A stretch of DNA of 23,806 bases from a virus. The stretch is from IMG/VR virus record IMGVR_UViG_3300025128_000336, positions 1 to 23,806 of that record; one strand, given 5' to 3'. The translations under genes were made by a program, and so were the position numbers. Below are positions 10,912 to 15,577 of the stretch, piece by piece. The notes beneath the pieces are model-generated. The model was not told the origin of the DNA. It saw nothing but the letters and a program-made list of their open reading frames with translations, and did not search any database. Within the stretch, counting starts at the first letter, position 1; every line of letters begins with the position of its first letter.

Positions 10912-13335
10912 TTATCCTGAGTGAGTAATAATTCGATTTATAACTGCGGTTAATTCAAACGGCAGTGGCTGTGTTTGTTTTACCGTTACCTGTCCACCCT
11001 CTTCCCAGGAGCCGTGCATTTGCACGGTCTTGTCACCTGTAAATAAAGGCGGTGAAGAATCCATTGGATCGCTGCCGCTGCGAAAAAGAACGCGGTCAAG
11101 TGAACCGTCTTTGGGTCCAAACTCTGCGCCCAGCGTGTCAAGAAATCTAAACGTCGTCTCAAACACTCGCTTGGCACGACCTTGCGCCGTGCCATCATCG
11201 CCGCCAGCTTCTGGCCTCAACGTGCTAACCTCTGTGTTATACTGAAGGCCAACGACAGCCGTTGTGACAGTTGGCGACAAACCAGTAACCTGACCGTTTG
11301 TTACAGTCTGGCTTGTGTAAACATCGCCATTCCCAACGATGCTAACGCTCTGACCTTCCAGATGATCTAAACCAGTTAATGTGGCTGTCGCTACACCGCT
11401 ATAACTCAAACCGCTATCAACAAAAAACGCATTGGTCTTGGTATCACCGCGCGATGTATCGAACTTGCTTTGCAGCACCTCGACATATCGGCGTGTAACG
11501 CTGTTGATCGTTCGCTTCACGATCATCCATACTTCGTCGTAGCCATTGCCCGAAATCGAGGTAACGCTCTCGACCACGGCCCCGGTTCCACCGATTTGGT
11601 GTAGGTGCCATCCGATAACCTCCTGATCTTTTTGAAAAGTTAAACCGATCAGCGCACCGTCGTCTCTGACCAGCCAGACGACGCTATCTGGTTCTTGCTG
11701 ATATGCCATCTCAACGAAACCAGCGCCGCTTATATTCTCCGCAAGGATTGTTAGGTCTGGCGATACAAAGCTATCAGTGGAAATTTCAAACACCATTTCA
11801 CGCAACTTGCGGCGGTGGTGCTGGATAAACATTACACGGTTGTCTATGCGGATTGGTCGCGTTGGAAAACTGCCGCGCGTGCCTTGCCTAACAACTCGTA
11901 TATTAGTTGGCGTTATTGCTTCTTGATCGCTGGACGATGACAGCGTGAACTCGCCGCCAGCAGTGCCAACGGCAACAACAGTACCAGGACTTAACCACCG
12001 TATTGCGTTGACCTGATCTGTGGCAATCGTGACGTTGATTGCGCCATCGGCTAGAGCGCTGGGCGTATGCGTTTCAAAGTCACCGCTTTTGCTGCCCCAA
12101 ATTGTTTGCGGCTGTTCCTTGCTGCCAGCAAAAAATAAACGTTGTTCAAAAAACGCTACCGCGCGGGGATAACCCGTCGTGCCACTGTAAGCGCCTAGCG
12201 ACCAGTGCGTGTCTGCTGCGTGACTCGCAAAGGTCCGATTAACAGTAGCGGCAACAATGGTCGTACTTGTTATGCCGGTTATTGTGGCGTTGCCGTATGC
12301 AATGCCACCGTCATCAACGAATTTCCACGTTACTGTGCCATCAACAATATTGTCGCCTTCGTTGGTCGGACCACCGCTACCCGCTGACGTTCCAGCTTGT
12401 ATTGCTTCATAGACATTGCCACTATTTCGAACCACAGCACCAACAGCATAAGCTGTGCTTGCCGCCCATTCCGAGGCTTGATAGCCGATGCGGATCAAAC
12501 GACCAATGTCGGTACTCGTAAAACCTGTGCCGCCATTAACGCCTGTCAACGCAGACGCTGTAATAGTTATACTGCCGGTAGTTCCGCTTGGATCAAACGT
12601 TGTTGTGGTGACATTCTCTGGCAGATAAGGGCCGTCAATAAACGTTACATCTGCCACTGTCCAATCAGTGTTACTTGTTCTTGTTACTTTCTTTGGTGGA
12701 TAGTTTTTGTGGACTAAAAATAAAACATCTGCCGTTTGCGCGAACTGGATTTCAAAAAGATCATCCTTATCAAACGGACTAGCGATTTGCACAACACTGG
12801 CAGCAGTGCCGCCGCTTGTGTAGGTGGTGTGGCCGCTACTGTCGATAGCTACACCATCCACAGTGTTTAACTGGAACGTGTTAGTTGTTTTTCCAGCAAC
12901 CTTAAAATACTTACCATTAACTTCGGTCATACCGCCGACGTTTTGAATAAACACCCAATCGCCGTCACTAAACCCATGTGAGCTACTGGTGACAACAGCA
13001 GGGTTAGCTTTTGTGATTGCTGTAATGTTTTTGTTAGCGTTTAAGATTGCGCCTTGGTCGGTATAAAACCGCATGTATTCATCACCAACCTCAATGCAAT
13101 AACTTTGCTCGGCGTTAAATTCAAACGGCAACAACCGTGACTTATCTGCGCTTGTGCGAACCTCATTAATAAACTTTGTACCCGGTCGCCTGTACACGCC
13201 ACCATGCGGCTGCACCACGCAGTTTGTCAGCGTCTCCGCCGCGTTCTTGTACTTTGCCACATCAATGCGGCCAAACAAGCGCGGCGAGAAAACGCCAGCG
13301 GTAAAGTTAGTCTGTATTGTAGTGACGCGAGACAT
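10912..13335 (-). CDS. Tail tubular protein B / tail nozzle, with inserted domains
   Basis: The 807-residue protein begins with the signature TNFTAGVFSPRLFGRID followed by HGGVYRRPGTKF, found at the start of podovirus tail-tube (nozzle or stabilisation) proteins. Residues about 106-177 (NPAVVTSSSHGFSDGDWVFI, then TYTSGG) match the short beta-barrel FCCH-type insertion often seen in such proteins. Residues about 289-343 (EWAASTAYAVGAVVRNSG, then TVTWKFVD) resemble a small carbohydrate-binding module of the CBM5/12 type. The remainder is beta-propeller-like. It lies directly after tail tubular protein A, with a one-base TAATG overlap, as in T7 (gp11-gp12). Confidence 0.85.
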   Translation of the reverse strand: MSRVTTIQTNFTAGVFSPRLFGRIDVAKYKNAAETLTNCVVQPHGGVYRRPGTKFINEVRTSADKSRLLPFEFNAEQSYCIEVGDEYMRFYTDQGAILNANKNITAITKANPAVVTSSSHGFSDGDWVFIQNVGGMTEVNGKYFKVAGKTTNTFQLNTVDGVAIDSSGHTTYTSGGTAASVVQIASPFDKDDLFEIQFAQTADVLFLVHKNYPPKKVTRTSNTDWTVADVTFIDGPYLPENVTTTTFDPSGTTGSITITASALTGVNGGTGFTSTDIGRLIRIGYQASEWAASTAYAVGAVVRNSGNVYEAIQAGTSAGSGGPTNEGDNIVDGTVTWKFVDDGGIAYGNATITGITSTTIVAATVNRTFASHAADTHWSLGAYSGTTGYPRAVAFFEQRLFFAGSKEQPQTIWGSKSGDFETHTPSALADGAINVTIATDQVNAIRWLSPGTVVAVGTAGGEFTLSSSSDQEAITPTNIRVVRQGTRGSFPTRPIRIDNRVMFIQHHRRKLREMVFEISTDSFVSPDLTILAENISGAGFVEMAYQQEPDSVVWLVRDDGALIGLTFQKDQEVIGWHLHQIGGTGAVVESVTSISGNGYDEVWMIVKRTINSVTRRYVEVLQSKFDTSRGDTKTNAFFVDSGLSYSGVATATLTGLDHLEGQSVSIVGNGDVYTSQTVTNGQVTGLSPTVTTAVVGLQYNTEVSTLRPEAGGDDGTAQGRAKRVFETTFRFLDTLGAEFGPKDGSLDRVLFRSGSDPMDSSPPLFTGDKTVQMHGSWEEGGQVTVKQTQPLPFELTAVINRIITHSG

Positions 13336-14434: not shown

Positions 14435-15577
14435 CTAACTTGGATCACATTCGATGTAACCAACGAGTTTTTCTTGCATTCTCGTTGCACCGATGGTCAT
14501 GGACGCGAAGACTTGCGTCGCATAATTTTTGTCATCCCGTTCACTGATCCGCACTTGCGCTTCAGCACCAGAAGCTAACAGCAAGCCACTTTTCGCGTAG
14601 AAAAGCACTTTGTCGTCGCTGTTAGAGTCAACTCCAATACGCTGCGTGCGGATAAAGTTGAAACCTAAAAAGGTATCAAGCTCACCTTGCACTACATAAT
14701 GTTCGAACAAACGAGCTACTGTTTGTCCCGCCTTTCGGCAGCTTACGGTTATGCCCGTAAGATCAGACCATATCTTCATCTCAATGAGATGCTCTGCGCT
14801 TCCACCGCGCTTGCGGTGTACTCCTAAAAGGATGGTCGTTGAACCTTCCCCAAATGGGGCTTGGCTGCTGATTGCCCTCGACTTTACGTTAGGGTTTCCC
14901 AGCAATTCACAGAGTGTTTACACGCATGTTGCCATGCGTGGGCGCTAGTGTATTAACGCTTTGACGGTATTGAAATCTGAACTTGTGACTGCTGTTTCAG
15001 CTAACAAGTTTTTCAACTGTTTAGCATTAACAATACAATACCGCTCGATTTCTGGATCAATGTCAGAGGCATTCAGTATTTCAGAGGCCGCCCTTAACTT
15101 AGCTACGTTAAGGCCAACATCAGATGAACTGCCGCCAACTTGAACGTCAACAACGTTGTTCGTATCAAACGCAGTTGACGTTGAACCATCGACGCCCGTG
15201 AAAGCCGCACTATCCGCAGCCGCTATGATTTCATCGTCCATAGCGCGACCGAGAGCCATAGCTTGTGATTCAGCATACGGACCCGTTAGTGAAACCAACG
15301 TGCGAACCTCATCTTCCTTGTCAATGAGGTCAGCAACGTCATAGTCAACTAGGCTGACACGACGCCTCGCGCTGGGGGTATCTACTCTTGGTGTGTCGCT
15401 GTGACGCGACGTGCGTTTTTGTGCGGAAACTTCACCGAGTTGTTCGAAAAAACCGTTCTTGCCGGTCACTGTCTCATTTCTGACAGAGTCCCGAAGGCGT
15501 GAACCTTTTTGTTGAACGAGATGTTCGACATTACCACGATACTGTTCCACAAACGCGGTTGTGATCTGCACACTCAT
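14435..15577 (-). CDS. Major capsid protein, two exons joined by a group I intron
   Basis: The coding sequence is complement(join(14435..14694,14956..15577)), 882 nt, 293 residues. Exon 1 gives residues 1-207 plus one base of codon 208, starting MSVQITTAFVEQYRG after SD AAGGAG; an earlier in-frame ATG lacks an SD and is not used here. Exon 2 supplies the rest, starting VQGELDTFLGFNFIR and ending MQEKLVGYIECDPS. The product looks like an HK97-fold podovirus capsid protein (Phage_capsid_2 type): a VDYDVADLIDKEDEVRTL segment, RAMDDEIIAAADSAAFTG, and a C-terminal FYAKSGLLLA followed by VRISERDDKNYATQVF. Without splicing, translation would continue Leu-Ile-His into a TAG at 14947-14945 and give only 210 residues. 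It lies between scaffold and decoration genes, the expected place. Its TAG stop overlaps the next SD. Confidence 0.93.
14695..14955 (-). ncRNA. Group I self-splicing intron, subgroup IA-like, in the capsid gene
   Basis: All core helices can be drawn by eye on the minus strand: P2 CACGCAT/ATGCGTG (14940-14934, 14927-14921); P3 CTCTG/CAGAG (14914-14910, 14796-14792); P4 TGCTG/CAGCA (14904-14900, 14870-14866); P5 CCCT/AGGG; P6a around CCCCATTTGGGG; P7 GACCA/TGGTC (14837-14833, 14770-14766); P7.1 TCCT/AGGA; P7.2 CACCGC/GCGGTG (14818-14813, 14808-14803); P8 CATCTC/GAGATG; P9 CTTACGG/CCGTAAG (14761-14755, 14748-14742); then a GCC-GAAA-GGC hairpin and ACAAAC/GTTTGT. The S element AAGATATGGTCTG and R element GTTCAACGACCA match group I consensus, and J4/5 has the usual GGGAAA. 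Two extra stems between P7 and P3' place it in subgroup IA. The last base is G (14695). No ORF or homing endonuclease lies inside. Confidence 0.95.
14942..14959 (-). other. P1 helix and internal guide sequence at the 5' splice site
   Basis: Exon 1 ends GCGT (14959-14956) and pairs with GCGC (14945-14942); the last exon base U14956 pairs with G14945 as the conserved U-G wobble, and T14955 with A14946 extends the stem. The adjacent CACTA (14950-14946) is the reverse complement of the first five exon 2 bases TAGTG (14694-14690), giving a 5-bp P10. The two pairings together fix both splice sites without protein alignment and agree with the restored reading frame (GCG T-TA GTG CAA). Confidence 0.92.

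Follow-up and report, generated by a model that had tools for sequence, protein, structure and literature searches.

A predicted self-splicing group I intron in the major capsid protein gene of an uncultured marine HTVC010P-like podovirus

The capsid gene and its intron

The DNA analyzed here, referred to as the window, comprises positions 1-23,806 (23.8 kb, 23,806 nt) of the IMG/VR record IMGVR_UViG_3300025128_000336 from an uncultured virus. Its minus strand encodes a small terminase (PF20901), a head-to-tail connector or portal protein (PF12236) and the major capsid protein (MCP, PF19821) as well as further large ORFs. The gene order matches that of pelagiphage Lederberg, i.e., TerL, connector, protease/assembly protein, capsid, tail tubular A and tail tubular B. 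In tblastn comparisons, the closest annotated capsid proteins came from HTVC010P-type Pelagibacter phages and were 51-55% identical. By its sequence, the window is an uncultured marine HTVC010P-like podovirus. Since its G+C content of 46-51% is well above that of Pelagibacter genomes, the virus probably infects a marine bacterium other than Pelagibacter. A large protein encoded where tail tubular protein B is expected (10912-13335, minus strand) matches the models E1_FCCH (PF16190) and CBM_5_12 (PF02839).

The MCP gene consists of two exons separated by 261 nt (Table 1). Exon 1 was assigned by its match to PF19821 (E=2.1e-62) together with the reading frame, and exon 2 by comparing the spliced translation with uninterrupted relatives. 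Joined, both exons encode a complete MCP of 293 aa, which aligns end to end with these relatives. An empty-site allele in locus L002, whose protein is 94% identical to the window MCP, is uninterrupted at the exact insertion point and reads AAGGCGT/TAGTGCAAGG (slash, insertion point); other relatives are likewise uninterrupted there. An ORF-based annotation would list the window capsid gene as two broken ORFs; the correct reading is a single spliced gene.

The intervening element matches the Rfam family Intron_gpI (RF00028) at 83.2 bits (E=4.3e-20, gathering score 50). The match runs over the full length of the model (1-253), covers the core from P1 to P9 and spans 14965-14742 on the minus strand; nothing was seen that would exclude membership in the family. 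In the unconstrained minimum-energy fold, which has a z-score of -5.3, P1, P2 and P9.2 are present. Sequence and fold further reveal P7.1/P7.2 hairpins between P7 and P3 as well as P9.1/P9.2, and by this hairpin anatomy only, the intron probably belongs to subgroup IA2.

To place the element among its relatives, IMG/VR was scanned by protein and by pattern, yielding 26 fetched loci, the window included, some of which overlap or repeat stretches of one contig. These loci hold 11 distinct introns at the window site, 249-262 nt in length and 65-95% identical to the window intron. All 26 loci restore the frame and the peptide ALV(Q/H/N)G after predicted splicing, with both exons conserved. The 261-nt element can be assigned to the group I introns because it matches the covariance model, because relatives are uninterrupted at this point and because the layout of P1, U.G pair, P10 and terminal G recurs in the 11 introns.

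Table 1 Features of the MCP gene and its intron in the window.
Feature	Position	Strand	Basis or remark
MCP exon 1	14956..15577	-	Start codon to first base of codon 208
P1 5' strand, exon bases GCGU, last exon base U at 14956	14956..14959	-	Invariant in 11/11 introns
Group I intron, 261 nt, without endonuclease ORF	14955..14695	-	RF00028 match
P10 5' strand CACUA, directly 5' of the internal guide sequence	14946..14950	-	Fold and pairing; outer pair in 8/11 introns
In-frame UAG stop shortly past the 5' splice site	14945..14947	-	Unspliced mRNA would end ...KALIH, then stop
Internal guide sequence GCGC, P1 3' strand; G14945 forms the U.G wobble	14942..14945	-	Invariant in 11/11 introns
Omega G, terminal intron base	14695	-	G in 11/11 distinct introns at the window site
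P10 3' strand UAGUG, first five exon 2 bases	14690..14694	-	Pairing and protein junction
MCP exon 2, LVQGELDTFLGF... to stop	14435..14694	-	Spliced translation against uninterrupted relatives

Splice sites and guide-sequence pairings

The initial annotation of this DNA had paired the exon bases GCGT with GCGC, with a wobble at the last exon base, and CACTA with the first five bases of exon 2, TAGTG. Both helices were recovered at the positions given in Table 1. P1 consists of the pairs G-C, C-G, G-C and U.G, the latter at the cut, and P10 of five Watson-Crick pairs lying flush against P1. Such a P10 between the internal guide sequence (IGS) and exon 2 is common among group I introns, although not universal. 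The spliced product reads GCG-TTA-GTG-CAA, encoding Ala-Leu-Val-Gln. A second sequence able to pair with GCGU, ACGC within P2, was rejected as guide in favor of the invariant GCGC, being taken up by P2 and not conserved in relatives.

Candidate junctions in the precursor were enumerated by requiring a P1 that ends in U.G and has 4 bp or more, a 3' splice site after a G at most 60 nt from P9.2 and a P10 of at least 3 bp. Exactly one combination of 5' site, 3' site, P1 and P10 was obtained, and it is in frame. When random 15-mers were set between the fixed exons, this P1 with an adjacent P10 arose in 23 of 1,000,000 trials (2.3e-5) if only Watson-Crick pairs were counted, and in 1,547 of 1,000,000 (1.5e-3) if G.U pairs were allowed. 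In composition-preserving shuffles of the flanks, a pairing of the P1/P10 type appeared somewhere in 12.7% of cases and at the observed junction in 0/2000. Because such a share of shuffled flanks yields some pairing of this kind, the pairings alone are not decisive for the junction; their agreement with the junction demanded by the protein is. As evidence, P1 and P10 are not fully independent of each other, both being read from one IGS.

A rival reading accepts the intron but places both splice sites one or two bases further downstream. As TA follows each of the two cuts, an identical mRNA and protein, with the product GCGTTAGTGCAAGG, result from the junctions 14956/14694, 14955/14693 and 14954/14692. 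The initial annotation had regarded the splice sites as fixed to the base and had named the cDNA junction as the deciding test. A single in-frame solution does emerge under the U.G and terminal-G rules, but since all three registers yield an identical GCGTTAGTGCAAGG, a cDNA could neither choose among them nor refute the neighboring ones, and the choice from sequence rests on these two rules. In the shifted registers, a U-A or A-U pair of the P1 extension would replace the U.G pair at the last exon base, and the terminal intron base would be U or A rather than G, whereas all 11 introns at the window site keep both the U.G pair and the terminal G. We therefore consider a shift to 14955/14693 or 14954/14692 highly improbable and the proposed splice sites almost certainly right.

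GCGU, GCGC, the U.G pair and the terminal G are kept in 11/11 distinct introns. The extraction patterns included the IGS region, so that the invariance of the IGS partly reflects selection; one scan without the IGS in its pattern still returned only GCGU/GCGC introns at the window site. P1 as previously described is present throughout, but GCGU and GCGC never vary, which renders the covariation test of P1 across the 11 introns uninformative: the comparison neither supports nor contradicts this helix. For P10, the four inner pairs are invariant and the outer, fifth pair is lost in 3/11 introns. The five pairs initially counted are correct for the window, while across relatives the helix is reliably one of four.

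On the exon side, uninterrupted relatives use varied codons for Ala-Leu-Val (GCT CTT GTT, GCA TTA GCA and others), and intron carriers always have GCGTTAGT at the junction. A fixed GCGTTAGT in carriers would be expected if the exon were held by P1/P10 or served as insertion target, a pattern partly confounded by descent.

Conservation of the core and predicted splicing

Across the 11 introns, both sides change in 31 of 79 pairs; shuffles give 16.5 such pairs, and sliding the partners gives 3-10. Of the cells, 93.3% pair, against 32-46% with slid partners. P3, P7 and P8 are 100% paired, so that the P3/P7 pseudoknot is kept, and P6 and P4 reach 100% and 95.5%, respectively. Compensatory changes are found mostly in P2, P5, P8, P9, P9.1 and P9.2, with one each in P6 and P7, the latter from C-G to U-A. 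The alignment columns of P7.1 (86% paired) and P7.2 (59%) look mis-registered between two length classes and were not used either way.

Group I introns are removed by a two-step chemistry (reviewed in PMC3984707). From this anatomy we infer that the window intron is spliced as follows. During the first step, a free guanosine bound in P7 would cut after U14956, within the P1 helix. In the second step, the freed exon 1 would attack after G14695, with exon 2 aligned beside it by P10. Prior to this second step, P1 may gain two further pairs from the last two bases of the P10 strand. Such an exchange between P1 extension and P10 from one splicing step to the other is usual in group I introns.

The unspliced frame runs into a UAG right after the junction. 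This would also fit a decayed intron that no longer splices, leaving a truncated capsid protein (...KALIH) or marking the contig as a defective genome, but the core is intact, compensatory changes keep the helices across introns that are only 65-95% identical, and every record shows two conserved exons in frame, so that we regard decay as very improbable. An in-frame UAG within the same CACUAG occurs in 11/11 introns, 4-5 codons past the 5' site, and the P1 loop differs in length only by 3 nt among them, so that the stop stays in the same frame. Halting ribosomes before they reach the intron core would be a reasonable purpose of this conserved codon. Overall, we hold with very high confidence that the MCP gene carries an intron at the window site with the described P1, P10 and terminal-G layout, which is predicted to remove itself by group I splicing.

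Known capsid-gene introns and further insertion sites

Phage capsid genes with group I introns have been described before, and the window intron is a further case of an ordinary type. In the Cluster J mycobacteriophage LittleE, a group I intron of the major capsid gene is removed in vivo, as established by cDNA and N-terminal protein sequence (PMC3706429). The LittleE intron, ~820 bp long, encodes a putative homing endonuclease, whereas the window intron has 261 nt, lacks an endonuclease and resides in an unrelated phage. That paper also cites a group I intron in the capsid gene of the lactococcal phage Tuc2009, a different phage; it likewise interrupts a structural gene. Closer in size is the intron in a minor tail gene of BAKA (Cluster J), with 265 bp and no endonuclease, for which splicing was demonstrated by RT-PCR (PMC3706429). 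Like the window intron, it follows an exon 1 ending in U and itself ends in G, but it lies in another gene and another phage group. Among the hits listed in a literature search, no published capsid intron from the HTVC010P group was found.

The longest stop-free run within the window intron is 82 aa, and its 261 nt leave no room for a usual endonuclease. Scans with HNH_3, HNH and GIY-YIG gave no match in 21 records, many of which are fragments, and Pfam scans of the larger ORFs of the window did not reveal an endonuclease either. The endonuclease ORF in or near the intron that defines mobile (homing) group I introns was not detected in these records. Uncultured marine podoviruses related to pelagiphage HTVC010P carry predicted self-splicing introns in the gene of their main virion protein, at several sites and without a detectable homing endonuclease.

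In relatives, group I introns occupy about four other sites of the MCP gene, at residues ~49 (L104, L114), ~55 (L066), 66 (L141) and 84 (L066, L143 and others), and score above the Rfam gathering score wherever scanned. Two introns are present at once in the MCP gene of L066 (residues ~55 and 84), and L104 and L114 also have two each. The pattern scan for residue 84 returned many unrelated contigs, of which those encoding the capsid reading were kept. This family comprises 17 loci, some overlapping (L066, L143, L198, L199, L212, L215, L218, L220, L225, L228, L230, L231, L232, L236, L237, L241 and L244), with 12 distinct introns of 223-253 nt from two capsid clades. Their P1 is formed by GACCU/GGGUC with a U.G pair and their P10 by CAAUG/CAUUG (5 bp). 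By P1, P10 and protein, the 3' site lies at ...UA/CAUUGA in the 12 distinct introns, and the family therefore appears to end in A, not G. An alternative junction with a terminal G, introducing Asn, is unlikely because capsid residue 85 is I or V in 38/38 distinct uninterrupted peptides and the second clade, too, has an uninterrupted member with DLIDDADKV. The terminal G of group I introns is considered universally conserved, and A takes its place in the sea anemone mitochondrial ND5-717 intron (PMC8146996).

We tentatively propose, as somewhat short of an even chance, that the MCP gene of HTVC010P-like phages is a repeated target of endonuclease-free group I introns at about five sites (near residues 49, 55, 66, 84 and 208), and that the residue-84 family, with G replaced by A in 17/17 loci, may still splice. 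As no endonuclease was detected, the introns could conceivably spread, under this proposal, through reverse splicing or with the help of an endonuclease supplied in trans.

Clustered introns were also observed outside the capsid gene. In non-capsid genes of L087, L090, L092 and L100, group I introns resembling the window intron in their cores lie close together in groups of two to four, with four within 1.7 kb in L090 and four within 1.5 kb in L100.
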